Shown: positions 3,424-24,428 of the stretch, in pieces
Position numbering within the stretch: position 1 is the stretch's first letter
Layout: every line of letters begins with the position of its first letter
IMG/VR virus record: IMGVR_UViG_3300008339_000457
Span: 1 to 24,449 of that record
Strand: one strand, 5' to 3'
Source of the DNA: a virus
Length of the DNA: 24,449 nt
Notes under the pieces: generated by a model
The model's database searches: none
The model's input: only the letters and a program-made list of their open reading frames with translations
Told to the model about the DNA's origin: nothing
Program-made: the position numbers and the translations under genes

Positions 3424-4299
3424 TTAGTCCTCGGATTCTGTCAGCAGGAAATCGAGCGAGCGCTCCAAGAGAATACGGTCTTCGTCTTCTTTAAGAATGT
3501 ATCCAGATGGTTCTCCGACTAATAGTTTGATCTCTCCAGTTGTAACAAAGTCTAGTGTACACGTTATGATTGCATCAGCGCTTACGTTTAAGCCTGACGC
3601 AGTTATGGTTGCCTCGAACTCGTAGTAGACAGATGATTCGCCGGGAGCCAGTGATCTGTCAACTATGTACAGTGCCAAGTCGCAGCTGCTGCCAATATCT
3701 ACACGCTGCAGAGTTTGCAGCAACATTAATGGCACTTCTTTAATGCCGGTTGTGCTAGAATCGAATAAGCAGTCTATACGGCCACTACCGCTAATCAAGC
3801 CGGCAGCAAATTGTGTTCTGAACTTGTCGCTGAGGGATGTGGTATCTACTTGGTCGCGGGTTGTATTGAGTTCGTAGTTAGTAACATTACCTAGTACGCG
3901 GGTAACACTATCTCGTAGCGTGATAGTTACGGGCAGGGCCGCGCCCGAGAAAGCAGTGACAGTATATTCCGCGCTGCGATTGTTATTAACGGCCTCGTCA
4001 AAGGTGTCGAAAAGTCGTAAACCACCTACAGCATTGACATTGACGTAAGCAGTAATTGTGTCTTCAACGGTGGCGCTTGGCCAGTTGGATGAGGCGAAGC
4101 AGATCAAACCGCGTGGATCGGTAGTGCCGATCTCGATTCGGTCCCCTGTGACAAGGTTGTCACCGGAGCGGGCTAGGCCTACCCGATTTAGGGGAAGCGT
4201 TACATCGTCTGGGGTGATTTGGTCTGCGAACTGACTAAGCCCGGCTTGGCTGCCGCGCTTTAGCCGGATATTGCCTGTTGCACCAAGGAAGACGGCCAT
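3424..4299 (-). CDS. Tail protein, probable tail-tube-like or tip-associated (291 aa)
   Basis: The ATG at 4299 overlaps the stop of the preceding gene as TAATG, so translation is probably coupled. The protein starts MAVFLGATGNIRLKRG. Around residues 130-175 it has VTNYELNTTRDQVDTTSLSD followed by KFRTQFAAGLISGSGRIDCLFD. That is the pattern of a tail-tube fold, where a strand with a D-x-TS/TN turn precedes a gly-rich strand and a charged strand. The neighbouring 144-residue protein has an equivalent stretch (TVELLSTNAIDSTVNTFTPG then KGATGSATLIYY). The C-terminus (GYILKEDEDRILLERSLDF then LLTESED) is acidic and separate. It is likely a virion protein of the distal tail. A function as a second tube-like ring is inference. 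Confidence 0.6.
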   Translation of the reverse strand: MAVFLGATGNIRLKRGSQAGLSQFADQITPDDVTLPLNRVGLARSGDNLVTGDRIEIGTTDPRGLICFASSNWPSATVEDTITAYVNVNAVGGLRLFDTFDEAVNNNRSAEYTVTAFSGAALPVTITLRDSVTRVLGNVTNYELNTTRDQVDTTSLSDKFRTQFAAGLISGSGRIDCLFDSSTTGIKEVPLMLLQTLQRVDIGSSCDLALYIVDRSLAPGESSVYYEFEATITASGLNVSADAIITCTLDFVTTGEIKLLVGEPSGYILKEDEDRILLERSLDFLLTESED

Positions 4300-4733
4300 T
4301 ACGCAGTAACGACTTCAACAAAGTCACCATCCATAGTGAATTGGATTGGCACAGTACTCAACTCGCCAGTACTGACGCTGACTTGGGCGCTGGTGATGTA
4401 CGCATTAAATTTGATGTCGTCTGCAGCACCGCCGCCTACATTTAGCTCCAAAAACACGCGATCAGATTCGGTTGCAGCACCGCCTTTCATAATTCGGCTA
4501 AGAAGTGCTGTGAACTGCGTGAAAGAGGCGCTTTCGGTGCCTTCAAGTCTGTAGTAGATAAGTGTGGCGCTACCTGTTGCGCCTTTGACTCCAGGGGTAA
4601 AGGTATTAACGGTACTGTCAATGGCGTTAGTGGACAGCAACTCAACCGTGGTATCCAACGACCAATCACGGATTTTGGCTACGGGCTTTCCGTCAAAGGT
4701 TAGGGACCCGGTACGCCCTGTATAGAAAGCCAT
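4299..4733 (-). CDS. Small tail-tube-like protein (144 aa)
   Basis: The product starts MAFYTGRTGSLTFDGKPVAKIRDWSLD. This order (GxxGxLxxDGxxVAxIxxW) and the later LSTNAIDSTVNTFTPGVKG and TGSATLIYYRLEG segments resemble the small tube proteins of phage tails. In the middle, residues 78-115 include FLELNVGGGAADDIKFNAYI, and the chain ends SAQVSVSTGELSTVPIQFTMDGDF, again like the closing strands of that fold. The true major tail protein gene lies upstream at 15959-16969, so this copy after the tip protein is probably a specialised ring or tip component. It sits 40 bases downstream of the 123-residue gene and is coupled by TAATG to the 291-residue gene. The fold assignment is by eye only. Confidence 0.6.
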   Translation of the reverse strand: MAFYTGRTGSLTFDGKPVAKIRDWSLDTTVELLSTNAIDSTVNTFTPGVKGATGSATLIYYRLEGTESASFTQFTALLSRIMKGGAATESDRVFLELNVGGGAADDIKFNAYITSAQVSVSTGELSTVPIQFTMDGDFVEVVTA

Positions 4734-5145: not shown

Positions 5146-8100
5146 TACTCCAATACGCGGAAGCTGGCTTCTGACAGCACGTCCTTTGCAACAATGCTAG
5201 CTCCTGTGCTATCGACTGGTACCTCTACGGCAGAGACGTTGACGAGGCCGTCCTCGTCGAGGGTGAGCTGCTCCACTTGGTACATACCAACACTGGCGCT
5301 CGAACTGAGCAGTGTGAACAGGCATCCGTACAACGTCGAATTTGTGACGGCGTTATTTGTGATGGTGATTCGTTGCTCTGTTACAGCGCCAGTGGAAGGG
5401 TTGTAGACGAGAGCGTCATAGGTGCCGTTGGCGATGGTTGTGATGCTGACCAAGGTGCCGGCGTCCGTGATGCCGCCGTTGTTGGTGGCGCTGTAGCTGG
5501 TGGACTCGGTAATCACACGGATGTAAGAGCCGGGTTGGATCCCGAGGGCGTCGGGCACAGTTTTGAAGCTGACGGTGTGGGTGACGCGGCGGCGGATGCT
5601 CAGCAGGAAGCGAGCAGTCAGCAATGCCTGGGCGCGGTTGGTGCAGAAGTCGGTAAGATCGAAGGCTTGCTGGGTGGTGGCACGGTTGCCTTCCGTGATG
5701 TCTGCCCAGTCGACCAGGGCAGATGCCTGCGTGGGTAGGTCGTTCTCGACGGTGATGCGCCAACTAACCAGAGCACGGAAGTTTGAACGCTGAGCGGCGT
5801 CGATGTACTGCACTTGCAGGCTGTCTTGGATGATATTGCCGGCAGTGAAAATTTGATCGACAGCAATGGGGCTGGTGCTGATTTCGTAATTACTGTTGTA
5901 AGGCAGCGCTGGCATCATGCCGAAGCGGCCATTTTTGATAGTGAAGTTACAGAGTTGTAGTGCTGCGTTGTCGTAAAGGAAAGATCGGAAGCTGTCGCTG
6001 TCTTCTACAACACCATCGAAGAAGATTCTGTTCGAGCGTTGGAAATTAGCGGTGATGCGTAGGGAGTCGATGTCGATCAACTCTGGCGGTACGATATTGC
6101 CAACGCCTTGGCTCTTGCTGGTTAGTAGATAGTAGACCAGATCCGCGAATAGGTTGCTGGGTCTGGTGTCGCCCTCGATTAGGCGGTAGACGCTGATGCC
6201 GGTTGGGACCCAAGCGCGTAGTTGACCAATGCCACCAAGCTGCCCACTAGATTTAACAGCTAGTCCGAATGTTGACATGCCGTAGTATTCGGCAAGCGAT
6301 TCATTGGAGATGGATTCGTTGACGTAAACGATCTCGTGCTCGGGGGAGCTTTCATTCGACTTAACCAGCTCTAGGTAGTGGCTGCAGTCTGAAACCTGAG
6401 AATTCTCCTCGAAAATACGGCCTTCTCCAGTGAGTAAAATTTCACCGGGAACCTCTACACTCTTTACTGCAACGCTTGAAACGCTAAAAGCAAAGCCCAC
6501 CGACGAGTAACCTTCTTGGCGAGCAAACGGATTAGTACTAGGTGTAGCTTTTTCGATCGTAAAAGCGTCATTGACTGCCCAACTTTTTGTGGCGGAAACT
6601 ACGCTGTACGATTCGGAAGTCCAACGGTAAGTTGAGCCTGCCGCTGATATATACCTTGATCCGACATCAACGCCAACAGTTCCCACACCTGAATAGGCTG
6701 TTACGCGTACAGTAATGTATCTATCCCCGTTGGGTTTATAATGCTGTACGTCTACAGAACGCCATTGATTGGCGTAGCTAGGAGCGAATCCTAGTATTTC
6801 AGTTAGCCAGGCATGGCGTATTAGTTGTATGCTACCCGTGTTTGAACTTTGTGCATATTGTGATAAGCCCGTAGGCGTTGTTGTAGTGGTAGTGGTTACA
6901 GTCGGCTGCACAGATTGCTTAGGATCTGCAAGCATTTCTTCGTTAAACCTGATGCTAGAGATGACCACTACTTCACCAGTCGTTGTTATGCGAAAATCAC
7001 CGTAAGGAGTTGTGTAATCTTCTCCGATTACTTTACCACCGGACGCATCGAGTCTTGTTGCGAGATTACTGTCGATACTATTAATGGCGATATCAGATCC
7101 TGTGCGGGGTATTATGCGATACTCGTAATACCCAGATGTGCGCGGACGGATACGCAAGTAGTTATACAGATCAATAGGCGCTTTTCCGGTGACGCAAAAT
7201 ACTCGTGGGATACGAGCCCAAGGCTGCTGTGGCTGGCCGTAGCGTTGGACCGGGCGAACCCATAAAGAGAAGCACGACGACCGTTCAAAGTACTTGTCCA
7301 TACGCGGTGTAGTCACCGTTATGTTTGCTTTATCTAGCGTGTGTAGTTTTTCGGCTGTCGGTATTGCATTGAAATTGCACAAGCCATTCGCTCGGTTCCA
7401 CACCTGACTGCGGATACCGAGCTCGATAACTTCGGTGTCACGGCGCACCGGGCGAATTGTTGCGATGTGCAGTCTGCATATGTTGTAAAAAGCTGCCCCA
7501 CAATGTTTGCGCGTGTTAAACCCATCGCCACTTAGGGGAAAAGGTGGTGCGCCCGGACCAGGCCAAGGACCTTCGTACCCACCGAGCGGTTCTTCGATGG
7601 TCCGCGTGCCGGGGATACCAACTTCTGGTACGCCTATAATTGCAGTGCAGAGAAACGTTATATTAGACAATAGATTCTTGTTTGTATCACGCTCTGAGCG
7701 GCTTTGTACAACCCATACGCTTCCGGCTATAACCCATTTAGAACCTATGGTTAGTAAGTCATAAGCACGTTCGCGCCATGACTTTGACGATGTACGTAAG
7801 TCTTTTATATCTACATCCGTGTTCTTAAATCCACCGTCTTCTACTGTACGCTCCATCAATTCTTTGTATTGTTGACCTAACGTGATGCGAAACACTAATG
7901 TGTCACCTTCACTTACTGCTACTATTGTGCGGTCTGCTATATCGTTGCCTCCGTTTGTGCGGCTATGGCTGACAAAACCCATACCACGTGAATATGCTCG
8001 TCCTACGCCAGGCATACCTACTTGTTTACGATCGTCAGCCGGTTGGCCTTCGTACCTGTGCAAGACGTTTGCATTGGCACCAGCTATTTTGGTGCGTTTT

Positions 8101-9047
8101 GCTTGGGTCTCGAAGCGTGCTGTTTTAATATCATCTTCGGAACCTTTTGTACTAGCGTACGGTGCGCTGATGATTTCCCAGTTGAAGCGATAGGCCGATC
8201 CGTTATGAATAGGTTCTGACGTCCCAAAAGCAGTGTTGCTCTGTGGGCTGTACGTCATGGAGAATCCTTGACTAAATTCTCCGTCAGCCGTAGGTGCAGT
8301 GAAGATAGGGCGCGTGCCTGTGCCGCTATCTGGTAACCCTTGGGTACCTGCGATTATCCGCGACGGTATAGGGCGATTTTCACCTAGCTGCGAAGACCAA
8401 TAGAGAGCGTAATCGCGAGAGCCAAGACTATTCAGAGCTGATGTATCGAGACGGATACCACCAAGTTGCGGTGTCTCAACCCCGTGCTCGCCAGCAACAT
8501 AGATACCCTCGAATGCTTGGTAGCTGCCGTAGGAGTACAGCCGGCTCCAGACCAGTGCGGGAGCGAGGATTAGGCCCCCAGTTAGTACACCGTCGCGTCC
8601 AGTTCCGCGTTTGCCGAACGGGATGGGGATTGGTTGACCGTACTCGGCAAGGCTGCTGACATTGTCGAAGCTGGTGGTTTGGTTGAAGCGGCTAGGGCCG
8701 ATCTGATCCGCGAGCTTTTTACCTCTGATCTTGGCGGGTGTCTCTAGCGCAGGCGCTTTAGGTGCCAGCAAGATGCTGACGGCTGTAGATGCTAAGCCTA
8801 AAACAAGGCTGACGATCGCTACAACTTCCCAGTTGTTGATGTCTGGGATATGGTCGTATTCAGCTGGTCTTACATATGCTCGCGACTGCGCGTGACGGAT
8901 AAGTACTCGATATTCCTGTTCGCTGCAACCTAGAGCTTCAATCAGTGCGATTTCATACGGTAAGAGCGGAGGATCGTAAGGGCGGACACCGGCTTCCAAT
9001 CGGCTGTTCCGGTCAGGCGATTGAGATACAGGATTCCGTTCTGCCAT
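5145..9047 (-). CDS. Central tail tip / host specificity protein, lambda J-like (1300 aa)
   Basis: The size and position after the tape measure match the central tip (tip attachment) protein of siphoviruses, which plugs the tube and directs adsorption. The N-terminus contains NPVSQSPDRNSRLEAGVRPY and a hydrophobic stretch at residues 73-95 (WEVVAIVSLVLGLASTAVSI), as in J-type proteins. Then comes EYGQPIPIPFGKRGTGRDGV, an assembly-domain-like motif. Residues about 490-600 form a Cys-containing insertion, and a poly-Thr linker (TVTTTTTTTPTG) lies near residue 720. Around residues 1125-1175, FCTNRAQALLTARFLLSIRR and HTVSFKTVPDALGIQPGSYI form the conserved domain of J proteins. The middle, roughly bases 6250-8250, looks clearly more AT-rich than the flanks, suggesting mosaic exchange. 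The start at 9047 overlaps the preceding gene by 106 bases and has only a weak GGGG upstream. Confidence 0.85.
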   Translation of the reverse strand: MAERNPVSQSPDRNSRLEAGVRPYDPPLLPYEIALIEALGCSEQEYRVLIRHAQSRAYVRPAEYDHIPDINNWEVVAIVSLVLGLASTAVSILLAPKAPALETPAKIRGKKLADQIGPSRFNQTTSFDNVSSLAEYGQPIPIPFGKRGTGRDGVLTGGLILAPALVWSRLYSYGSYQAFEGIYVAGEHGVETPQLGGIRLDTSALNSLGSRDYALYWSSQLGENRPIPSRIIAGTQGLPDSGTGTRPIFTAPTADGEFSQGFSMTYSPQSNTAFGTSEPIHNGSAYRFNWEIISAPYASTKGSEDDIKTARFETQAKRTKIAGANANVLHRYEGQPADDRKQVGMPGVGRAYSRGMGFVSHSRTNGGNDIADRTIVAVSEGDTLVFRITLGQQYKELMERTVEDGGFKNTDVDIKDLRTSSKSWRERAYDLLTIGSKWVIAGSVWVVQSRSERDTNKNLLSNITFLCTAIIGVPEVGIPGTRTIEEPLGGYEGPWPGPGAPPFPLSGDGFNTRKHCGAAFYNICRLHIATIRPVRRDTEVIELGIRSQVWNRANGLCNFNAIPTAEKLHTLDKANITVTTPRMDKYFERSSCFSLWVRPVQRYGQPQQPWARIPRVFCVTGKAPIDLYNYLRIRPRTSGYYEYRIIPRTGSDIAINSIDSNLATRLDASGGKVIGEDYTTPYGDFRITTTGEVVVISSIRFNEEMLADPKQSVQPTVTTTTTTTPTGLSQYAQSSNTGSIQLIRHAWLTEILGFAPSYANQWRSVDVQHYKPNGDRYITVRVTAYSGVGTVGVDVGSRYISAAGSTYRWTSESYSVVSATKSWAVNDAFTIEKATPSTNPFARQEGYSSVGFAFSVSSVAVKSVEVPGEILLTGEGRIFEENSQVSDCSHYLELVKSNESSPEHEIVYVNESISNESLAEYYGMSTFGLAVKSSGQLGGIGQLRAWVPTGISVYRLIEGDTRPSNLFADLVYYLLTSKSQGVGNIVPPELIDIDSLRITANFQRSNRIFFDGVVEDSDSFRSFLYDNAALQLCNFTIKNGRFGMMPALPYNSNYEISTSPIAVDQIFTAGNIIQDSLQVQYIDAAQRSNFRALVSWRITVENDLPTQASALVDWADITEGNRATTQQAFDLTDFCTNRAQALLTARFLLSIRRRVTHTVSFKTVPDALGIQPGSYIRVITESTSYSATNNGGITDAGTLVSITTIANGTYDALVYNPSTGAVTEQRITITNNAVTNSTLYGCLFTLLSSSASVGMYQVEQLTLDEDGLVNVSAVEVPVDSTGASIVAKDVLSEASFRVLE

Positions 9048-9274: not shown

Positions 9275-9719
9275 GGATTTGTGCAGTAAATGGGATGCTT
9301 CCGACTTGCCAACGATGTAGTCGGCGGGCTGGGATATTGGTCTGAACTGCGTCCAGCACTGAGTTCAAGCTGATCTGGATGTTGGTTTCGTCCCAGCCTC
9401 CGCTAGAACAGGTGCCCCAATAGGTGTAAAGGGTGCTCTGGACTGCTCGAGTGGAGGGTTCCCAGAGCACCGTGGTGACCTTGGCAACCCATAGGTTATC
9501 GAGGGCGTCAACGATCCAGGCTCGGGTCATCGCGGTGTTAGCAAATTGAAGCGTGGCGTCTAAGTTGTCACCCTGAAGGGAGGCCACCGCTCCACCGAAG
9601 CTGAACGGTAAAAATAGGTAGCCATTTATGTTTTGGTTGATAGCGTAGTTTTGGAAACGATATTGTGCTGCTTGGCCACTAGGGCCGACTTCAAATAAGT
9701 GGCCGTAGGCGTATTCCAT
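9267..9719 (-). CDS. Minor tail protein at the distal tail, gpL/DUF1833-like (150 aa)
   Basis: The ATG at 9719 overlaps the TAA of the tape measure gene (TAATG), so it is coupled to it. The product has MEYAYGHLFEVGPSGQAAQY, then YAINQNINGYLFLPFSFGGA, GDNLDATLQFANTAMTRAW and LNSVLDAVQTNIPARRLHRW. The order of an all-beta domain with a conserved L-SVLDAV and PARR near the C-terminus fits small hub proteins that sit between the tape measure and the tip protein (positions of lambda M/L). It lacks the cysteine set of lambda gpL. Role: probably a ring or connector between tail tube end and central tip. Family name given only tentatively. Confidence 0.65.
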   Translation of the reverse strand: MEYAYGHLFEVGPSGQAAQYRFQNYAINQNINGYLFLPFSFGGAVASLQGDNLDATLQFANTAMTRAWIVDALDNLWVAKVTTVLWEPSTRAVQSTLYTYWGTCSSGGWDETNIQISLNSVLDAVQTNIPARRLHRWQVGSIPFTAQIRV

Positions 9720-12700
9720 TAGATACCAACTCCTCTACGTGTGGCGGCGCTGTTTTTCAGGCTGCGCATGGCGCGGCGTTCGCCTTGGATAGCGCCCTGT
9801 TGGGCAGCTTGCGCCATACCACGCTGGAACTGATCAGCCGTAACGTAGTCCACATTGTTGATGCGTTCCACGCTGTAGCGGACGTCGATAGGCTCCATCG
9901 GAGCAGTCCTGCGGGTGGCTTCAGCCATGACCCCACCGCTACCGACAAAACCACCACCAGCAGGACCGCGGTAACGTCCCATGGCGCCATCCAGGCGAGC
10001 TGTGACACCTAGCTTGCCATCAGGTCCGCGCTTGAGCGGCATGATCGCTTCTGGGCCGGCCTCGCCCATGAGACCTGTTTGCACAGCACCTCCATCGGCG
10101 AACTGGAATAAGGTCGGAGACGATACGACACCACCCTTAGCGAAGCGGGCAGTACTCCCATCGAAGTAGGCACCCTTAGCGGCCATCAGGGGGAATGAGC
10201 CGGGGAGTGGTGGTTTAGCTCCACCTGCTCCCCCACCGAACAAGCCAGCAAACTGCTTAGCAATACCGATTGCTATGTATGTGGCAATCATCTTAGCGGC
10301 TTCTTGCATTAAAATCTGACCGATGTCTTTTAAGAAGCTGGAGAATACTTCTTTTGCGGTTGTCGTGCCTTCGATGAGTCCAGTTATACCGTTTGTTAAT
10401 GCATTACCAACAGCATCTCCGATGCCTTGAGAAACAGTAATAGCAACACCTTCGAGATCTTCTAGCTGTCGTTGTGCATCACCAATGAAGCCCCGTATAC
10501 GCGTGCCGGGCTCGGTGGCGGCTTTCGCGCGGGCGTCTTCGGCTCCTGCACCGGCACGGCCGGCTGCTCCAACACCTTCGATCTGCTTGCGCAAGCGCTC
10601 GATGGTGGCGAGCGCAGCAGCGAGCTGTTTCTCTAGTTCAACCTTTTCGGTACCCGAAGTCGCTGCGATCTTTTGCTGGAGTTCGTCTCGGAGCGCGAGC
10701 TCGGTGGTCAGTTGTGCACTGAGTTCCGTTGTGAGACGGTTTACTTCACGTTGAATATCTAACTTGGCTATTTCGGCTGCAATGAACTCGGGTGCGACAC
10801 CTTCTGCTTGCAAGCTGTTACGCAATTTGAGGGCTTCAATGTCCTCGTAAATACTGCGAGCCTGATCACGCGTTTGTTGAATGAAGTTTGTGGCTTGTTC
10901 AGTAGCCAGAATGCGTTGTTTGAGTAGCGCTTCTTGATCCAGCCCACGTAGATACTGTGCATGCTTCGTGTTGACCGCTTCAATAGCGCGTGTTCGCTCG
11001 GTATCACTGAGCTTTGTCTGTTTAGCAATACCGTCGAGGATCTGTTGGAGCTCACGCGCAGCAGTAGCGCGCTGGGCAAACAGGTTGGATTCGAGAGCGG
11101 CGCGCTCGGGGCTAAAGGTTGTCGAGTCACTACGTGTGAGAGCGTCGTAGTTGGCCTGCAGTTCGAGCAGCTGGTCTTGGTACTGCTCGATTGCGACCTG
11201 AGGGAAGGCGGCTTTTGCGATCTCGTCGAAAGCTTCCGCTGTGTTGGCCTCTGTAATCGCTGCCTGTAGTGAGCGGAGGCGCTCCATTGCGCCTGCAAGG
11301 CTGCGAACAGCAGTGGCGTAGTTGTCAGCCGCAGCGGATGCATCGGGTAATTCGCTGTCGCCAGCAGGGGCAGCTGTAGGAGGGGCAGCAGCAGCAGCAG
11401 CACCTGCGCCGCCTCCCATCAGTTGCTGTGTTGCGGCGCGAAGTTTGCGCGGGTCGGCATACTGGAGTCCGATCCACTCCTGTTTGAGTCCGCGCTCGGT
11501 GGCTGCGATGTCTCCCGGGACAACACGATTACGAGCCAGGGCTTCAAACAGCTTCTCCTGTACTGCTGGGCTGAACTTGTCCGAGGGAGAAACACCAGTG
11601 GGGCCATATCCTCCGCTCATTAAAGAGCGAAGAGTAGAGCCAATAATTTGATATTTACCAACAGCATGTAGCTGTTGATTGCGTGGAACATTGGGCGCTA
11701 GTTGCCTTCGCTGAATCTCAGCGATCGTCATATTGACTAGGTTTGGATCTATACCGCTGCCATGCGCTGTATGTCCCTGATTGCTACCGCCTCGGTTGAA
11801 CGCTCCGTAGTTTCCTCCGTAGCTTTCGTGGCCGCCGATGAGCTGACTGAGTGCTCCGCTCGGTCCTGTAGGTGCGGGGGGTCCGGCAACGCCTGCTCGG
11901 CGCCGAGCGTCAGCTGAATCGCGCTCGTAGTCGGCGGACTTTTTGCGGAGCTCGGCGATCTTCTTCTCAGTGTCGTAGCGGTAGTCGCTGATTGCCTTCT
12001 CGAGGTTGGTGACCTCAATGGCAATGGTTTGCTTGGCGGCTTCGATCTCAAGTTCGCCGCGTTCACGGGTGGCGATGTAGTTGTTAAGCGCCTCGAGGGC
12101 GGCGCGGGAGGCGCCTTCTTCGCCCTCGATGAGCTTGGCATTGGCTCGCTCGATCTGCTTGATGCGCAGCTCGCCGGCGGCACGGAAGATGTCGACTTCC
12201 TTCTGAGCTAAGGCTTCGCGCTGCTGAAATAGGTCGTTCTCGAGCTGGCGGCGCAGGTCAGCGATCTCGCGCTCGAGGTTGGTGCGGTTCTGCGCTTGGA
12301 GCTGGACGTCCTTGATCGCTTGCTCACGGTCGCGTTGGGCGTCTACGCCACGCAGCTCGGCTTTGATCTTGGCTTCCTCTTTGAGCAGGCCACCGAGTAC
12401 TTGACGAGAGCGTTCCTCGAAACGGCCTACCTCGGAGCCAGAGAGTGCATCCCAGAATTCGCCCCAGCTTTGGATACCGGGTTTGAGTTCGTATCGAATT
12501 TGGTTGATTTTCTTGCGTACTTCTTCTAGCTGATCGATATTGCGGCTGTAGTTGGCATTAACGATGGCCTGCTCAAAGTCGCGAGCGGATTTTGTAGCGC
12601 TATCAGCCGAATCACTTACATCCTTGTACGTTGTTTGGAGGCGACGGAGGGCTTCAGCAGCACGGGCGTTTGACTGTTGATCCTCTTGTGCACGCTGAAA

Positions 12701-14668
12701 GCGACCGAAGGCGTCGATTACAGCGGCGATACCGATCTGAATGACGGCGATCCAGCCCAAGGAAGCCAGGATCGATGCACCCGCGGCTTTGGCTCCAGCA
12801 CCGAGGCCGCGGAAGCCAGCAGCGAGGCCGTTCAGTTGCGTGCCTGACGTGACAGCTTGCTTGCCTACGGTGAGCAGCTCAACTGATAGCGCCTTGAGGC
12901 CGGCTGCCAGAGCGGGGATAGCGGCGGCTGGGCCTACGAGCGCTGTGGCCAGACCGGCGAAGAGGACGATCAGTTTGCCGATGGCCAGGACAACTGCGGC
13001 GATGGCACCGACCAGGCCGGCGAGAGCTGTGCCGAGGCCGCCGATGGCGGGGATGACTGCGCCGACGATGAAGCGGCCGAAGAGTACGAGCTGTGTAGCG
13101 GCGTCGAGCCCGACGCGCTTGAGGAGACCGAGTACTGCGGCGACCTCGGAGAAGTACTGGACGGCGGGGGTGTTGAGGAAACGGGAGTAGAGGTTGAACA
13201 GACCCGCCAGGGGCTGCGCAATCGTGCCCACCACGGTGGCGATGTTGGCCAGGGCGGAGGCGAGGGCTTCGAAGGTGCCGACCTTGATGCGGACAAAGGC
13301 CTCGGCGATGTTGCGGAAGGCATCGACCAGGATCAGTGCGGTGGGCTTCAACGCTTCGATGGCCTGCGTGAGGGCACCGACGGTGCGCTGAGCGACAAGC
13401 TCGATCTGGTTGAAGCCTTGCTGCGCGACGGAGGCAGCGGCAGAGGCGGCGCGGGAGGGGTCGCCGGCGCCGATTCCGGTGCGGCCGGCGGTGAGCCCGA
13501 CGACGAGCTGCCCGGCGCGGCCGATGGCTTGGCCGGCGCCCTCGGCGATGGCGAAGATCTGGGTGCGGATCTTGAACAGGGTCTCGAAGACACTGGTCAG
13601 GCCGGCAAGCAGGGGGTCGAGAAGGCCGCGGCCGAAGTTCTGGCCTATGAGTTCACCGAGGTCAGCGATGTTGGAGATGACACCGGCGAAGCCCTGAGCG
13701 GCAATTTTCTGGCCGGCTACTGCGGCGGCGAGGCGGTCCTCGAGGAACTTGGTTACGCCGCCGGTTTGAGACTTGGCGCGAGCGATGTCTTCATTGGTGA
13801 TACCGAGCGCTTTGGCTAGATACGAGTCCGTGGTGATGTCACCACGAAGGATGGAGCCGATCTCTTGCTGCGCCTGGTACAGCGGTATTCCGAAGGTGCC
13901 GAGAGCGGCAGCGAAGTTGATCGCGAGGTCTTCGGCTTCCTTCAAGCCACCGCCGATCTGTCCTACCTGTGCAGCAACGAGGCCAAAGACCTCGATGACG
14001 TCATTCGAGGTGACGCCCGCCAGGGCGATGGACCGTTCTCGGATGGAGTCGATACGCTCTGCTACGGCGCCGGTCAGTGAGACAATCTTCTGGTATGGAT
14101 CGGTGATCTCCTTGCCACCAGCAAAGACTCGGTTTGTAGACGCGAGCGTCGTCTGAGTCTTGAGGATCGTCTCGCGGAGCTGGATCTCGCGGCCGATGGT
14201 GTTGTTGAAGAAACCGTTCCATGCGGCTTGAACGACGCTGACGGCCTCTTTGAGGGCGAAGGTGGCGAAGCCGACCTTGGCGAGTACATCGATAAGGCGG
14301 CCACCGACGGTGCCGGCGACAGTGAGTGAGCGCGAGAGGATGCTTCCTGCTTGCGCGCTTTCCTTAAGCGCTGCGCCGAACTGGAACTGCTGTTTTGCTG
14401 TGGCTGCAGTGGTCTTAGCTAGGCTCTCAAACTCGCGGACTTTATCCCCTACTCCGGGTATATTCTTACTGATGGAGTAAAAGGTACGTATGTTGTTGCT
14501 GGCTGCCTTAATATCGTTCTGTATGTTTGAAAAGTCTTTGTTTAGACTTCTCAGGTCAATACTGAATTTACGCGACTTCGTAGCCGCAGTAGCGAGTTTA
14601 TCTACCTGCTGTAGTTTTCGCTCAGCGGCCTGAGTTTCAGCTATTACGTTGAGCCGAAAGTCAGACAC
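9719..14668 (-). CDS. Tape measure protein with embedded lysozyme-like domain (1649 aa)
   Basis: This is by far the longest gene and lies directly downstream of the tail chaperone frames, as tape measure genes do. It starts at GTG 14668 (SDFRLNVIAETQAAERKLQQ), giving an alpha-helical N-terminus. Hydrophobic helices lie near residues 548-595. Long coiled coils rich in Q, E, K and R lie around 690-930 and 1130-1430. Residues about 940-1080 form a lysozyme-like module: IGGHESYGGNYGAFNRGG with Glu948 as likely catalytic acid, then HAVGKYQIIGSTLRSLM. The C-terminus has FADGGAVQTGLMGEAGPEAI, a signature seen in many tape measure proteins. It scaffolds and sets tail length, is ejected with DNA, and the embedded hydrolase would open peptidoglycan locally during injection. 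At 0.15 nm per residue, it implies a tail of at most about 250 nm. Confidence 0.93.
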   Translation of the reverse strand: MSDFRLNVIAETQAAERKLQQVDKLATAATKSRKFSIDLRSLNKDFSNIQNDIKAASNNIRTFYSISKNIPGVGDKVREFESLAKTTAATAKQQFQFGAALKESAQAGSILSRSLTVAGTVGGRLIDVLAKVGFATFALKEAVSVVQAAWNGFFNNTIGREIQLRETILKTQTTLASTNRVFAGGKEITDPYQKIVSLTGAVAERIDSIRERSIALAGVTSNDVIEVFGLVAAQVGQIGGGLKEAEDLAINFAAALGTFGIPLYQAQQEIGSILRGDITTDSYLAKALGITNEDIARAKSQTGGVTKFLEDRLAAAVAGQKIAAQGFAGVISNIADLGELIGQNFGRGLLDPLLAGLTSVFETLFKIRTQIFAIAEGAGQAIGRAGQLVVGLTAGRTGIGAGDPSRAASAAASVAQQGFNQIELVAQRTVGALTQAIEALKPTALILVDAFRNIAEAFVRIKVGTFEALASALANIATVVGTIAQPLAGLFNLYSRFLNTPAVQYFSEVAAVLGLLKRVGLDAATQLVLFGRFIVGAVIPAIGGLGTALAGLVGAIAAVVLAIGKLIVLFAGLATALVGPAAAIPALAAGLKALSVELLTVGKQAVTSGTQLNGLAAGFRGLGAGAKAAGASILASLGWIAVIQIGIAAVIDAFGRFQRAQEDQQSNARAAEALRRLQTTYKDVSDSADSATKSARDFEQAIVNANYSRNIDQLEEVRKKINQIRYELKPGIQSWGEFWDALSGSEVGRFEERSRQVLGGLLKEEAKIKAELRGVDAQRDREQAIKDVQLQAQNRTNLEREIADLRRQLENDLFQQREALAQKEVDIFRAAGELRIKQIERANAKLIEGEEGASRAALEALNNYIATRERGELEIEAAKQTIAIEVTNLEKAISDYRYDTEKKIAELRKKSADYERDSADARRRAGVAGPPAPTGPSGALSQLIGGHESYGGNYGAFNRGGSNQGHTAHGSGIDPNLVNMTIAEIQRRQLAPNVPRNQQLHAVGKYQIIGSTLRSLMSGGYGPTGVSPSDKFSPAVQEKLFEALARNRVVPGDIAATERGLKQEWIGLQYADPRKLRAATQQLMGGGAGAAAAAAPPTAAPAGDSELPDASAAADNYATAVRSLAGAMERLRSLQAAITEANTAEAFDEIAKAAFPQVAIEQYQDQLLELQANYDALTRSDSTTFSPERAALESNLFAQRATAARELQQILDGIAKQTKLSDTERTRAIEAVNTKHAQYLRGLDQEALLKQRILATEQATNFIQQTRDQARSIYEDIEALKLRNSLQAEGVAPEFIAAEIAKLDIQREVNRLTTELSAQLTTELALRDELQQKIAATSGTEKVELEKQLAAALATIERLRKQIEGVGAAGRAGAGAEDARAKAATEPGTRIRGFIGDAQRQLEDLEGVAITVSQGIGDAVGNALTNGITGLIEGTTTAKEVFSSFLKDIGQILMQEAAKMIATYIAIGIAKQFAGLFGGGAGGAKPPLPGSFPLMAAKGAYFDGSTARFAKGGVVSSPTLFQFADGGAVQTGLMGEAGPEAIMPLKRGPDGKLGVTARLDGAMGRYRGPAGGGFVGSGGVMAEATRRTAPMEPIDVRYSVERINNVDYVTADQFQRGMAQAAQQGAIQGERRAMRSLKNSAATRRGVGI

Positions 14669-14692: not shown

Positions 14693-15666
14693 TTAGGTCG
14701 GGCCTGTGGCTGCGGTTGCGAGCGCGGCGTAGACGTGCAGCGGCAGGCACTGGGTGCGTACGAGCTCGGAGAGGATGAACTTGGTGGGTCCGTCGGGGCC
14801 GTCGGAGACTGCTGCGGTTGGTTTCCAGTCAGGGAAGGGAAGGAAATCGCGGGGCTGCACCTTGGGTGCGGGGCGCTTGGAACCGGAGTACCCGTGTGCG
14901 ATCTGGATCAGCACGGTGGTAAGCCGCGCCGCGGTGACGCTTTGCATGTTGGCGTTACCGCGCTCGAGGTCGTCGATCTGGCGCAGCAGCCAGCGGATTG
15001 TGCTAATCGGGGTGCGGAGGAACCGGGCGGGGGTGAAGTCTCCACCTACTGGAGATGAACGGACTCGGAAGTAGACCGAGTCCCAGTCAGACAGCGGTGT
15101 GCGGAGCGTGTCCTCGGCTTGCTTCAGGGTTTGCTCGGGGGAGGGCTGAATTCGGGCTCCTCCGCCGAATCGTTTCCCTCCGCTGTGGGCCAGCCATCAC
15201 GCTCCCAGGTGAGGAGCTCGAAGATTTGCTCCATCAAGCGTGCGGGGATGGCTTCGGTGTCGGCCTCGGTCCAGTCTTCAAGCTTTTGCCAGTCCTTGGC
15301 GCGTGGCAGCTTGGCTTCGCCGCGGTACTGCATGAAGAGCGTAACGAAGGCAATCTGCTGCTCGACAGCTCCGATGGAGTCGCGCTGCAGCTCCTCTAGG
15401 TCAGAAGCGTAGTCGTAGAGCAGCTCTTGGTTCTCTTCGGCGGAGTTGCCGAGAAGGTCAATAGCTTCTTTGGTTGTGATGCCTTTGTCTTTAGCAATGC
15501 GCTGCGCAAGCTTAATAGAGCGAAAAGTCGACTTAGATTGCTTACGGCTTAGCGTTTCAATGCCCTTAGCTTCACCTGGTACAAGGTCGTGGTAAACGGG
15601 GAAGCGGAAAGGGCCGATCTCGTGGTACTCCTCGGGGGAGAACAGGAGCGACGCGTACTTAGACAT
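14693..15666 (-). CDS. Tail assembly chaperone GT-type fusion made by -1 frameshift (about 324 aa)
   Basis: A second open frame runs from 15196 to a TAA at 14693 and contains no ATG, GTG or TTG before 14947. It must therefore be reached from the frame above. Reading the upstream gene from 15666 through codon AAC (15174-15172), slipping back one base on GGGAAAC and continuing CGA TTC GGC gives a fusion of about 324 residues. The extension reads RFGGGARIQPSPEQTLKQAE, later SDWDSVYFRVRSSPVGGDFT and RWLLRQIDDLERGNANMQSV. Phage tails of the lambda type make a short G and a longer GT chaperone this way, in this location just before the tape measure. GT recruits tail tube subunits onto the tape measure. 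An independent start at ATG 14947 would give only 84 residues and waste about 80 conserved-looking codons. Confidence 0.75.
15124..15666 (-). CDS. Tail assembly chaperone, G-type (unshifted product, 180 aa)
   Basis: The product starts MSKYASLLFSPEEYHEIGPF and is mostly acidic and helical (KSTFRSIKLAQRIAKDKGIT, then ELLYDYASDLEELQRDSIGA). It ends ERDGWPTAEGNDSAEEPEFS followed by PPPSKP. Location between the major tail protein and the tape measure is that of lambda G. I chose ATG 15666, which overlaps the TAA of the preceding gene (15659) by 8 bases and so suggests coupling. A TTG at 15708 would add 14 residues (MSLSGLGPSISPSL); it is possible but has no clear ribosome binding site. The protein is expected to be the abundant non-frameshifted chaperone that coats the tape measure during assembly and is absent from the virion. 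Confidence 0.75.
   Translation of the reverse strand: MSKYASLLFSPEEYHEIGPFRFPVYHDLVPGEAKGIETLSRKQSKSTFRSIKLAQRIAKDKGITTKEAIDLLGNSAEENQELLYDYASDLEELQRDSIGAVEQQIAFVTLFMQYRGEAKLPRAKDWQKLEDWTEADTEAIPARLMEQIFELLTWERDGWPTAEGNDSAEEPEFSPPPSKP
15140..15163 (-). other. Possible frameshift-stimulating stem-loop
   Basis: On the minus strand, GGAGG(A)GC at 15163-15156 can pair with GC-CCTCC at 15146-15140. This makes a seven-base-pair stem with one bulged A and a nine-base loop. The stem begins 8 nucleotides after the slippery heptamer, the spacing usually found for stimulatory structures. Pairing was done by eye and no folding energy was computed. Confidence 0.45.
15172..15178 (-). other. Slippery heptamer GGGAAAC for -1 ribosomal frameshifting
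   Basis: The coding strand reads GCG GAG GGA AAC GAT in the zero frame, so the heptamer sits as G GGA AAC, a classical X-XXY-YYZ arrangement. After a tandem slip the tRNAs re-pair on GGG AAA, and decoding continues as CGA TTC GGC in the -1 frame, which is open for 159 codons to 14693. The zero frame ends 16 codons later at 15124. G/GT chaperone genes of tailed phages commonly use such a site in this place. Confidence 0.8.
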
Positions 15667-15892
15667 CAGCGATGGGGAGATCGATGGACCAAGACCTGAA
15701 AGGCTCAACTTGGTTTACGAGCTCGTCAGGTAGTTCAACCATCACGCTAGCAGCCTCATACGCTAAGCGTATAGATTTGAACGGGATCAGGGGCTCCAGG
15801 TACAAGGCGCCGCAGTGAAGGGTGTCGCCTTGTACTTGGCAGTTCACTGCATACACCATGTGGGCTGCGTCCATTAAGAGGTCGTGTTGCAT
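15659..15892 (-). CDS. Hypothetical protein between major tail protein and chaperones (77 aa)
   Basis: The frame from ATG 15892 (MQHDLLMDAAHMVYAVNCQV) fills the space between the terminator and the chaperone gene. It overlaps the proposed chaperone start by 8 bases. The product contains QGDTLHCGALYLEPLIPF and ELPDELVNQVEPFRSWSIDL, and is soluble with no signal sequence. I do not recognise a family. No strong ribosome binding site is seen, and because it lies just beyond the terminator, expression would depend on read-through or on a promoter I cannot identify. Small unknown genes are common at this position in siphovirus tail clusters. Confidence 0.65.
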   Translation of the reverse strand: MQHDLLMDAAHMVYAVNCQVQGDTLHCGALYLEPLIPFKSIRLAYEAASVMVELPDELVNQVEPFRSWSIDLPIADV

Positions 15893-15958: not shown

Positions 15959-16969
15959 TTAGGCCGTACGGAAGAGGGTCTCGAAACCTTGGAGGGGGAA
16001 CAGAACACCGGTAGCAGAGGGGTTACCGCTGTTGTCGAGGGCCTGTTTGATGGCACCGTCAGCCACGCGGAGGCGGTAGATGGTGTTGCTAGCCAGGTTG
16101 GCAGAGGGGTTGATGGTAACGACGTTGCTTGCCAGAGAGACCGCAGCAGGAACAAGAGCACCACCGGAGGCGACCTCGAGGCGGAAGCCACTGCCGTCGG
16201 TTTGACCCAGGGAGAGCTGAGTCAGCGCCGCGGTGCCGTCGCTGGTGTAGGTGACGGTGAGGTCGTTGCCTACAACCACAGAGGAAGCGTTGTTAGCTGG
16301 CACAACCGCATACCGGCGGGTGCCGGAGGTAGCAGAGGTGAACAGCAGGCTCGACTGCACGCCACCGAAGGCCAGGGGGGTAGCACCAGCGTCGTAGCGG
16401 CCGAATACGGGGCGACCGCGGGACATCAGGTCGAAGGAGACCTCGGTGAGACCCTCTGCGGTGAGGTTCTCGTTGTAGTTCATCACGACGGCGTTGAAGC
16501 CGGTGAAGTCGTAGATGTAGTTGCCGCTAGTACCGTTGGCCTGACCGAGCTCTTTAAGAAACTCGATGTAGAGCTCGTAGTCCTTGTTGTACCGCGCTTT
16601 CTCAATAAGAGAAAAGCCCTCTTCGTAGTTGCCACGGAACACGGGGCAGTTCTGGCCGGCCGGGATGCCTGTGTCCTTCAGGAAGTAGGCAGTCACCGAG
16701 GCCTGCACCGTGGAGCCGGTGATCACCGAGTCACCCCAACCGTCGTCACCGAGGAGACGGAACTCCTGGTTGTTGTCGTTGATGGCGAAGGTGGTGTTGC
16801 TGACACCTTGGATCTCGACGTAGCGGGAACCGGCGTCGAGAGTGGGCAGGGTGACCATGCCGGCGGTGTCGCGGGTGGCGAAGTAGCGGCAGGGAGGGGT
16901 GAGGTCCACGGCACGGACTAGGGTCCGGTGAGCCTTGTGGAACGACAGCCCGATGGCGTAGTCGGCCAT
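15959..16969 (-). CDS. Major tail (tube) protein with Ig-like C-terminus (336 aa)
   Basis: The start at ATG 16969 has a strong ribosome binding site (AAGGAG, 8 bases upstream), in keeping with high expression. The N-terminal part, residues 1-200, contains YAIGLSFHKAHRTLVRAVDL, YVEIQGVSNTTFAINDNNQ and LTEVSFDLMSRGRPVFG, consistent with a tail tube subunit. The C-terminal part, about residues 215-336, has LTVTYTSDGTAALTQLSLGQ and VVTINPSANLASNTIYRLRV. The pattern NPSANLASNTIYRLRV-DGAIKQALDNSGN resembles bacterial Ig-like (Big_5) domains, as decorating Ig-like domains occur on tube proteins such as lambda gpV. Such domains project from the tail surface and may bind host polysaccharide. A strong terminator follows. 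Confidence 0.85.
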   Translation of the reverse strand: MADYAIGLSFHKAHRTLVRAVDLTPPCRYFATRDTAGMVTLPTLDAGSRYVEIQGVSNTTFAINDNNQEFRLLGDDGWGDSVITGSTVQASVTAYFLKDTGIPAGQNCPVFRGNYEEGFSLIEKARYNKDYELYIEFLKELGQANGTSGNYIYDFTGFNAVVMNYNENLTAEGLTEVSFDLMSRGRPVFGRYDAGATPLAFGGVQSSLLFTSATSGTRRYAVVPANNASSVVVGNDLTVTYTSDGTAALTQLSLGQTDGSGFRLEVASGGALVPAAVSLASNVVTINPSANLASNTIYRLRVADGAIKQALDNSGNPSATGVLFPLQGFETLFRTA

Positions 16970-20558: not shown

Positions 20559-21839
20559 TTACTTGGTAGCGGTGAGGGGACGTTTCCAAGCGTCAGTCAC
20601 CTTGCTGCGATAGGCAGCGATGGGGCTGTCGGTGGAGCGGCCGGCACCTTTCAGCGCGTCACGCAGGGTGGCGGTGCTGTCGGCGCGATCGGAATCGGCG
20701 TCCTCTTTGGTTTCGCCGTCGGCATCCTCGGAGTCGTCGTCCTCGGGGTCGCCATCTTCGTCGCCTTCGGCGTCAGCACGGGCGGCGAGGATGCCTTCAA
20801 CCACGCCCTGGATGTAGGCGGGTTCGGCGTCGTCGCGGGGTGCGGAGCCGGTGAGGTTCTCGAAAGCCTGTGTGTACAGGGAGGCGTCGTCGATACCGTC
20901 GAACTTGAAGTCCTCGGTGAACGCGGGGGCGAGGCGTTGCAGGGTTGCGAGGCGCTCGGCGACCAGCTGGTCGAGCTCGGCGGTGTCGATGCGGGCGTCG
21001 CCGGAGGCAGCGAGCTGCTCCTCGAGTGCATCGGCACGACCTTCAGCGGCCTCTTTGTCGTAGGCCAGAGCGTCGAAGTCGGCCTGCAGAGTGTCGAGCT
21101 TGGTGGCAAGCTCGTCGCGCTCGGTGGTGAGTGCTTGCAGTTGGCGCCCCATGTCCCGGGAGTAGGACTGGACCGCGCTGGCTGCTTCTGCGGGCAGATC
21201 GATCTCCAGGCCGTCGAGTTTGACGGTTGCCATAACGGGAGATGCAGTTGAACTGGACTGGGGCGCCATTTCGTGCTCGGGGAAGGCGGCTACAGCATCA
21301 GCTGCATCCATTCGATCGAGCAAGAGTCGTACCTCCGGGCCAGCCCGGCCGCGGGGGACAATGGCGATGTGGTTCACCCGGATGTTGCGCTGGACGCCGG
21401 CGTACTCTTCGCCCTCGGGGGTGATTCCGGGGGTGGGGTCAAAGTCGACCTTGTAGCCGGCAGATACCTCGGTGGCATCCTTGCGCTTGATCTTCTCGAT
21501 GGCATCAGCGTCGGTGACAACGAGTGCGACCTCGACAAAACCGTCGTTGTACCGAACTTGGCTACCGGAGTAGCCGACTTGGTACTGCTTGGTGTTGGCG
21601 GAGTCGAGAAGAACCGGTGGGTGACCCCACGTTGCGGGTTTCATGCCGAACGTGGAGAGGGAGTCCGGGTTACTGACCTCCTCAGGGGGTCGGTATTCGC
21701 GGACTTGGGAGCCATCAGACCGGCGGTAGAGCTGCGTACCCGAGCGGGCGGCGCGACACCAAACCCGGAGGTAGCCCTCGGGGGTGGTTTCGCTGCCCGT
21801 GATGGGAGCGAAGTCGTACCTGGACACTGATGTTTCCAT
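20559..21839 (-). CDS. Prohead protease (DUF2213-type) fused to scaffold-like C-terminus (426 aa)
   Basis: The N-terminal part, residues 1-178, has the conserved order WGHPPVLLDS, GFVEVALVVTDADAIEKI, DATEVSAGYKVDFD and NHIAIVPRGRAGPEV (156-170). These are characteristic of DUF2213 head maturation proteases; His157 and Ser126 are likely catalytic candidates. The second half, residues about 222-280, is a predicted coiled coil (QALTTERDELATKLDTLQAD), followed by a very acidic segment (357-386), which resembles a scaffolding domain. An internal Met203 (MATVKLDGLEIDLP, base 21233) could start a separate scaffold product. This would process the capsid and scaffold during head assembly. The start at 21839 is the first gene of the continuous head cluster, diverging from the XRE gene. 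Confidence 0.85.
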   Translation of the reverse strand: METSVSRYDFAPITGSETTPEGYLRVWCRAARSGTQLYRRSDGSQVREYRPPEEVSNPDSLSTFGMKPATWGHPPVLLDSANTKQYQVGYSGSQVRYNDGFVEVALVVTDADAIEKIKRKDATEVSAGYKVDFDPTPGITPEGEEYAGVQRNIRVNHIAIVPRGRAGPEVRLLLDRMDAADAVAAFPEHEMAPQSSSTASPVMATVKLDGLEIDLPAEAASAVQSYSRDMGRQLQALTTERDELATKLDTLQADFDALAYDKEAAEGRADALEEQLAASGDARIDTAELDQLVAERLATLQRLAPAFTEDFKFDGIDDASLYTQAFENLTGSAPRDDAEPAYIQGVVEGILAARADAEGDEDGDPEDDDSEDADGETKEDADSDRADSTATLRDALKGAGRSTDSPIAAYRSKVTDAWKRPLTATK

Positions 21840-22117
21840 GCTTAAGAGCTTACCGGTTCTTGTGCGTTTGCTTAGCTTTATGCACAGAGCGGTTACAGCA
21901 CTTGGCGATTCATAGGCAGTTGACGTTGTGTCGGCGTATCAGGGCACTACGGGAATACCATAAGTTTACGCAGTTTGAAGTTGCAGAGAGGTTAGGCGTT
22001 AGCCAAGCTGCATATTCGCGGTTGGAGAAAGGAGAGATAGAGGTGTCAGTTATGAAGCTGATAGCTTTGAGCGAGATCTACGATGTTAGGTTGCAGGAAT
22101 TAGTAAAAGATATCTAG
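21830..22117 (+). CDS. XRE/Cro-type helix-turn-helix regulator (95 aa frame; true start probably internal)
   Basis: This is the only rightward gene. Residues 33-95 form a full XRE domain: LCRRIRALREYHKFTQFEVA, then ERLGVSQAAYSRLEKGEIEV with the recognition helix near residues 58-67, and SVMKLIALSEIYDVRLQELV. The long frame begins at ATG 21830, but the first 30 residues are Cys-rich and non-conserved-looking and overlap the start of the protease gene. The real start is more likely TTG 21902 or TTG 21920 (AGG just upstream), making a 65-72 residue protein. It lies alone in the 274-base gap between two minus-strand genes, and its TAG shares the palindrome CTAG with the stop of the opposing gene. 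The DNA looks more AT-rich than the neighbours. It probably represses or activates a promoter nearby; the target is unknown. Confidence 0.8.
   Translation: MFPCLRAYRFLCVCLALCTERLQHLAIHRQLTLCRRIRALREYHKFTQFEVAERLGVSQAAYSRLEKGEIEVSVMKLIALSEIYDVRLQELVKDI
21840..21880. promoter_or_regulatory. Possible operator region upstream of the XRE and protease genes
   Basis: The DNA between the protease start and the XRE domain carries GCTTA at 21840, 21848 and 21870, and GCTTTA at 21875. An inverted pair TAAG-AG-CTTA is present at 21843-21852. This could be an XRE binding site, but no good promoter was found beside it, so support is weak. Confidence 0.25.
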
Positions 22118-23417: not shown

Positions 23418-24428
23418 CTACAGCGGAGTACCGAAGGGCTGCTTGCGCTCGCGGGCAAGGCGGGCGGCACGTTCTGGCTCTAGGGCTAGTCGTAGCCGTG
23501 GGGTTTTGACACCGAGAGCCTTTGCTACATCACTCATTTGAATGAGTCCACGCTCCATGGCTGCTCGCGGCGCTGTGTTGGCGTTGGCAGTCAGGATACG
23601 GCGTGTGAGTCCAGGAATGCGCGGTTGATCGGCCCCGCTTACGAAGCGTGAGCGGGGCATCCGGTCGGCAGCCAAGAGTTCGCGCTCGAGAGCGTCGTGG
23701 TAACGCTTGACTGCGATCTCGAAGCGCTCGGTGTTGGCAGCGCCTCCGTAAGTCGATAGTGCCTTTGCCTGCTTCTCAACGTTAGCTAGTACACCTTTGT
23801 ATTTATTAGTAAAATCAGCACCGCGTGAATTAAACCCTAAAAAGTCGGGAAGCCTATTCATATCATACATCAAGTTCATTACACCATTGCGGTAATGCGC
23901 TGGTTGCCGTGGATCATGCAGCTCTGTAGCATAACCAAAGTCTATCAATGCTACTTTTTTACTTTTAGCATTAACCATAAGATTTCCGTTATGAATGTCT
24001 CCATGTGCTAAGCCTGCTGTGTGTAACTTGCGAAACTCACGTGCGATTTTTGTTTTAACAATTAAGGGTGCGTTTGAGGCGTTACCATTAGAGTCACGGT
24101 ATTCTTTACCTAAAGTCTTGTAGCCACTCATATGAGTCAAAATCAGAGTCTGCGACCTTACCTGGCCATCCGCGTCGCTGATTGCTTGCATACGAAGCGG
24201 AGCGGGGACGTTGACACCGGCATAGTCGGCCAGGTCTAGGCGGCGGAACTCGCTAGCAACGTCGTCCTCGTCGCCATTGCGGAAGAGCTTGATGCCGTAC
24301 TTCTCAGAAGGATGGACAAAGTAAGTGCCGAAAGCTCCTGCGCCTGCTTGGCAGCGGGGTTGATTGACGTAGCCTCCTGCCGATGCAAGACCCTGGCTGC
24401 CGGTAGACACCAAGGCGCGGGCGTGCAT
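23418..24428 (-). CDS. Protein-kinase-like protein (336 aa; may extend past the right edge)
   Basis: All main motifs of a protein-kinase-like fold are in order. There is a glycine-rich loop at residues 29-35 (GAGAFGT), a candidate ATP-binding Lys47 (GIKLF), and Glu60 in the following helix. The catalytic loop HGDIHNGN spans 142-149 (Asp144, Asn149) and DFG spans 163-165. A C-terminal helical region follows (residues about 200-336). The substrate is unknown; it could be a host or virion protein, a lipid or a small molecule. The frame stays open upstream of ATG 24428 to the window edge (YGLSTGA), so the true start may lie outside or this may be the C-terminus of a larger protein. The centre (23760-24130) is visibly AT-rich. 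It sits next to virion genes; whether it is packaged is inference. Confidence 0.8.
   Translation of the reverse strand: MHARALVSTGSQGLASAGGYVNQPRCQAGAGAFGTYFVHPSEKYGIKLFRNGDEDDVASEFRRLDLADYAGVNVPAPLRMQAISDADGQVRSQTLILTHMSGYKTLGKEYRDSNGNASNAPLIVKTKIAREFRKLHTAGLAHGDIHNGNLMVNAKSKKVALIDFGYATELHDPRQPAHYRNGVMNLMYDMNRLPDFLGFNSRGADFTNKYKGVLANVEKQAKALSTYGGAANTERFEIAVKRYHDALERELLAADRMPRSRFVSGADQPRIPGLTRRILTANANTAPRAAMERGLIQMSDVAKALGVKTPRLRLALEPERAARLARERKQPFGTPL

Follow-up and report, generated by a model that had tools for sequence, protein, structure and literature searches.

A putative G/GT-type −1 ribosomal frameshift in the tail operon of an uncultured siphophage, and its conservation among relatives

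The virus record IMGVR_UViG_3300008339_000457 was analysed over its full 24,449 nt (the window). Its minus strand carries a pair of overlapping reading frames, here called G and T, that is best explained by G/GT-type programmed −1 ribosomal frameshifting within the tail operon of a siphophage (probability about 0.95). The predicted products are a G protein of 180 aa and a GT fusion of 324 aa. Both frames are coding, T has no separate start, and the presumed point of slippage, the heptamer, is conserved. Actual shifting by ribosomes at this site, the ratio of G to GT and the binding partners of the two products are inferred. The site is real, almost certainly functional and ordinary in kind: it adds a new member to the G/GT frameshifts well known from long-tailed phages, in proteins whose family had not been annotated.

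Organisation of the G/T module

The features of the locus are as follows.

15959–16969, minus strand: probable major tail (tube) protein, with an Ig-like domain at the C-terminus (Pfam Big_5, E 1.6e-7)
15659–15892, minus strand: 77-aa ORF just upstream of G, its stop overlapping the ATG of G
15124–15666, minus strand: G, the zero-frame ORF of 180 aa (ATG 15666, TGA 15126–15124)
15172–15178, minus strand: slippery heptamer GGGAAAC, read G GGA AAC, in phase near the 3' end of G
15134–15169, minus strand: predicted stem-loop (inner stem 15163–15140), which folds here and is not a conserved element
15124–15171, minus strand: dual-coded overlap of 48 nt that follows the heptamer and includes the zero-frame stop
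14693–15172, minus strand: T, the −1 frame, with 159 codons after the slip and TAA 14695–14693, predicted to be made only within GT
14693–14947, minus strand: 84-codon ATG ORF, the C-terminal half of T, which a gene caller would report
9719–14668, minus strand: tape measure protein (PHROG tail length tape measure families, best E 8e-24)

A preliminary description of this DNA had placed GGGAAAC in the zero frame of G as G GGA AAC, and this placement was confirmed together with all of its coordinates. G contributes 165 residues up to the AAC of the heptamer. The −1 frame is open from after the TGA at 15199–15197 and, as also described, runs on for 159 codons after the slip to the edge of the tape measure gene with no ATG, GTG or TTG before ATG 14947, from which an 84-aa ORF could be read. 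The tape measure ORF starts at GTG 14668, 24 nt beyond the end of T. Most ribosomes would stay in the zero frame and terminate at 15124, giving the 180-aa protein, and some would slip back one base at the heptamer to give the longer GT.

The 77-aa ORF lies between G and the 15959–16969 ORF, and neither PHROG nor Pfam searches gave a match for it. The 15959–16969 product is probably the major tail (tube) protein, a role assigned from its position only; it has no PHROG match, and the family search did not return a major tail protein for it. A 144-aa ORF at 4299–4733 (minus strand), far downstream of the tape measure gene, weakly matches a PHROG major tail protein (E 7e-7), whereas the ORF in the expected tube position has none.

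Two further genes of the window were noted. A 336-aa ORF at 23418–24428 (minus strand), within the virion gene cluster and adjoining a virion structural protein, carries a kinase-like catalytic motif (HGDIHNGN ... DFG) and scores above cut-off with Pfam APH, Kdo/WaaP, ABC1 and RIO. A 95-aa Cro/C1-type HTH protein (HTH_3) is encoded at 21830–22117 on the opposite (plus) strand inside the head gene cluster; phage S-CBS4 has a reversed transcriptional regulator, gp021, at a similar place.

Conservation of the heptamer and coding in the −1 frame

When the codons of the window's G were permuted synonymously, the heptamer reappeared in 14% of the permutations, and the chance of 158 consecutive open codons in the −1 frame is ~0.04 at the base composition of the window; taken alone, the window is therefore only suggestive. 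The relatives decide the matter: the site is in phase in every related module. Viral contigs were searched with G and with T and, with the cultured phage S-CBS4 added, 69 distinct complete modules were obtained. A second search, seeded with S-CBS4, gave 66 distinct sequences, in two of which T is cut by the contig end. As S-CBS4 is counted in both sets, the total is 134 sequences. A shift-prone heptamer was defined as an in-phase [A/G]3A3N.

All 69 modules related to the window have an in-phase heptamer in the same place: GGGAAAC in 47, GGGAAAG in 14, AAAAAAC in three, GGGAAAA and AAAAAAA in two each, and AAAAAAG in one. The ATG start and the protein of G are conserved in all 69 as well. The S-CBS4 clade likewise has the heptamer in phase in 66 of 66 sequences, as AAAAAAA (55), AAAAAAG (7) or GGGAAAA (4), the last of these occurring as GGGAAAAAAA, which holds both kinds. 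Outside the junction, an in-phase [A/G]3A3N was found at one of 8051 codon positions of G among the relatives. In a tree built without the junction columns, well supported branches require GGGAAA and AAAAAA to have replaced one another at least twice. The genome collection yielded a single contig, binned as Proteobacteria and probably a phage contig, and GGGAAAG is in phase there too.

Codon choice at the site is also restricted. In a reduced set of 50 modules, the glycine of the site is encoded by GGA in 45 of 45 modules with GGGAAA, as against 15% of the Gly codons in the remainder of G, and the glutamate preceding the site, where present, is always GAG in the GGGAAA modules. Because the sequences are related, neither these codon counts nor the heptamer counts are independent draws.

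Selection on the two frames was estimated as dN/dS (Nei-Gojobori, median over pairs). G has a value of ~0.05. T residues 18–75, which lie past the zero-frame stop and before ATG 14947, have ~0.09, and the remainder of T after this ATG has ~0.08. T is thus under purifying selection before its first ATG as it is after it. Within the overlap, conservation at the third positions of −1 codons is higher (0.745, compared with 0.49–0.53 in the remainder of T), as expected because the sequence there codes in two frames. The zero-frame tail past the slip (15124–15171, minus strand; EFSPPPSK.), within this overlap, is well conserved in the window's clade; this conservation may be of value to G or may be a mere consequence of the coding of T. 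The G/GT arrangement that had been proposed from the window is supported both by the heptamer in 69/69 and 66/66 sequences and by the purifying selection on T.

It could be supposed that T is a separate gene entered by an internal start or by reinitiation, at ATG 14947, at CTG 15127, or at ATT 15151. In the window, GGAGGAG stands 5 nt before ATT 15151, and CTG 15127 overlaps the zero-frame TGA as CTGA, a CTG/TGA overlap that recurs in 48 of the 69 modules. In the other 21, however, the triplet overlapping the stop is CTA, TTA or ATA, so CTG reinitiation is not the mechanism of the family. ATG 14947 is not conserved among relatives, and the purifying selection reaches upstream of it. Standard starts in the −1 frame of the relatives vary in place and almost none has a Shine-Dalgarno sequence; a conserved start with a ribosome binding site inside this frame, which the preliminary description had named as evidence against frameshifting, was not found among them. 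For 12 of the 50 modules, the −1 frame is open from just one codon before the heptamer, and hence an upstream start is impossible there. Since internal entry would also leave the conservation of the heptamer and the choice of GGA unexplained, we regard it as very unlikely.

Slippage of RNA polymerase on an A run in place of the ribosome, giving mRNAs of changed length, might be considered for the S-CBS4 clade, most members of which have seven A in a row. Transcriptional slippage in bacteria is known at runs of that length. The window and most of its clade, however, have just three A, preceded by three G, and a run of that size does not suffice for slippage of the ordinary kind. Both clades nevertheless keep the two frames in the same relation, which makes the polymerase a highly improbable source of the shift. 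No support was found for gene decay or for an error in sequencing or assembly. The frames stand in the same relation in the isolate S-CBS4 and across many metagenomes, in more than 130 distinct sequences, with both frames under purifying selection; the relatives thus already refute such an origin, and its probability is negligible. Relatives that had kept both frames and lost the heptamer, the other finding that would have spoken against frameshifting, were absent from both sets. Ribosomal frameshifting at the heptamer is the reading retained below.

The predicted stem downstream of the heptamer

A stem with a nine-base loop had been predicted to begin 8 bases past the heptamer. In the window it does fold: the inner stem (GGAGG.GC/GCCCUCC, 9-nt loop) begins at 15163, 8 nt past the heptamer. 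An outer UUCGG/CCGAG pairing extends it to 15169–15134, and because of this extension the whole predicted stem begins only 2 nt past the heptamer. The folding energy corresponds to z-scores of −1.7 (72 nt) and −2.2 (61 nt) relative to dinucleotide shuffles.

A role of this stem as a stimulator throughout the family was considered and rejected, and this part of the earlier proposal did not stand. Across 32 aligned relatives, the 12 stem pairs are formed in 68.8% of cells compared with 67.6% after shuffling, and changes on both sides of the stem show no excess over shuffles. RNAalifold gave no stem common to the relatives, and folding is ordinary in most of them: the 54 nt past the heptamer have a median folding-energy rank of 0.58 within their own genes (n=50), with a GC-adjusted z below −1 in only 3 of 50 modules. 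The GGAGG/CCUCC pairing is common to a few close relatives (L011, L020, L022) and to L100. As the alignment, RNAalifold and fold-rank tests were all negative, the structure does not belong to the conserved signal. What is conserved is the heptamer and not the downstream stem; a pseudoknot or a structural effect specific to one clade may exist.

A Shine-Dalgarno-like stimulator upstream of the heptamer was also rejected: in an imperfectly aligned table, the upstream codon columns carry no synonymous constraint like that on GGA. Of the frameshift features tested, the in-phase heptamer, its conservation, the coding −1 frame without a conserved start and the place before the tape measure gene were found and a conserved stimulator was not; the same test did not find one in phage lambda either.

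Likely function and comparison with known systems

Neither G nor T matched a known chaperone family or a known function in Pfam or PHROGs, and PDB sequences gave nothing relevant. A fold search of the PDB (model pLDDT 79) found no matching solved structure, and the comparison with lambda G by hhalign was negative. The comparison with G/GT chaperones that had been proposed as a check thus brought no sequence match. In fold searches of BFVD, G matched A0A346A5Z9 (E 1.7e-5) and A0A510E8E6, and T matched A0A346A600 and A0A510E8J5 (E 0.037). These matches are accession neighbours and may represent adjacent genes of the same two phages. Foldseek (BFVD) also gave weak matches to proteins named tail assembly chaperone, at E 0.3 and above, which are not significant.

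Since the searches detected no relation to chaperone families already known, G and GT are assigned as putative tail assembly chaperones from their position and architecture. The lack of such homology, with the weakness of the Foldseek matches to named chaperones, would also suit a true frameshift whose products do something else. The location directly before the tape measure gene, the sizes and the −1 layout all fit G/GT, and we consider another function unlikely.

It is possible, if rather doubtful, that these proteins form a new chaperone family, unrelated in sequence, in cyanobacterial siphophages, with frameshifting that depends on the heptamer alone. If so, the exchange between GGGAAAC/G and A6N would represent tuning or replacement of the slip site without a structural stimulator. 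Frameshifting at this locus corrects the annotation of the gene pair in S-CBS4 and in a large group of siphophages that are uncultured and probably cyanobacterial, where T is currently missing or appears as an orphan. The 134 slip sites differ in their heptamers and share no conserved stem, and they offer a natural test set for what determines the efficiency of frameshifting beyond E. coli. How G/GT frameshifting is understood in general does not change.

In the account of lambda given in PMC5009743 (citing Levin 1993; Xu 2004, 2013, 2014), gpG binds the tape measure protein, as does the minority product gpGT, and T is the part that binds the tube protein; both gpG and gpGT leave before the tail is complete, and the ratio of the products matters. 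By analogy, many copies of G would coat the tape measure protein, a few copies of GT would recruit the tail tube protein via T, and both would leave before the tail is completed. Run through the same script, lambda (NC_001416) gave GGGAAAG, a G of 140 aa, a GT of 279 aa and a T that ends at the tape measure gene; its fold rank past the heptamer, 0.45, is unremarkable. The module described here is alike in that T occupies the −1 frame after an in-phase heptamer near the 3' end of G and extends up to the tape measure gene. It differs from lambda in a heptamer that ends in C, where lambda has GGGAAAG, in an overlap of 48 nt instead of 18 nt, and in having no sequence homology to lambda G detectable by hhalign. 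The haloarchaeal siphoviruses HCTV-1, -2 and -5 (PMC5009743), which have archaeal hosts, are likened to it by arrangement.

The only annotated relative found is Synechococcus phage S-CBS4 (HQ698895), whose gp032/gp033 are homologous over 92% of the fusion with ~29% identity. S-CBS4 is also the nearest annotated phage by the capsid (55.6% identical), which suggests, as an inference, a cyanobacterial host for the phage studied here. Among the publications searched, two mention S-CBS4 and frameshift once each, and neither is about the G/T pair judging by title or abstract, an absence that is no proof that the site went unnoticed. In the annotation, gp032 and gp033 are two separate hypothetical proteins. 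Both S-CBS4 records start gp032 69 nt late, at an internal start (locus 8070) instead of the conserved ATG 8001 of the module at 8001–8971, and restrict gp033 to the C-terminal half of T; the expectation that a gene caller would report an orphan in place of T is thus borne out in a cultured phage. The slip site of S-CBS4 is in the same place and, as in the window, the tape measure gene follows directly; the heptamer is AAAAAAA in S-CBS4 and GGGAAAC here.
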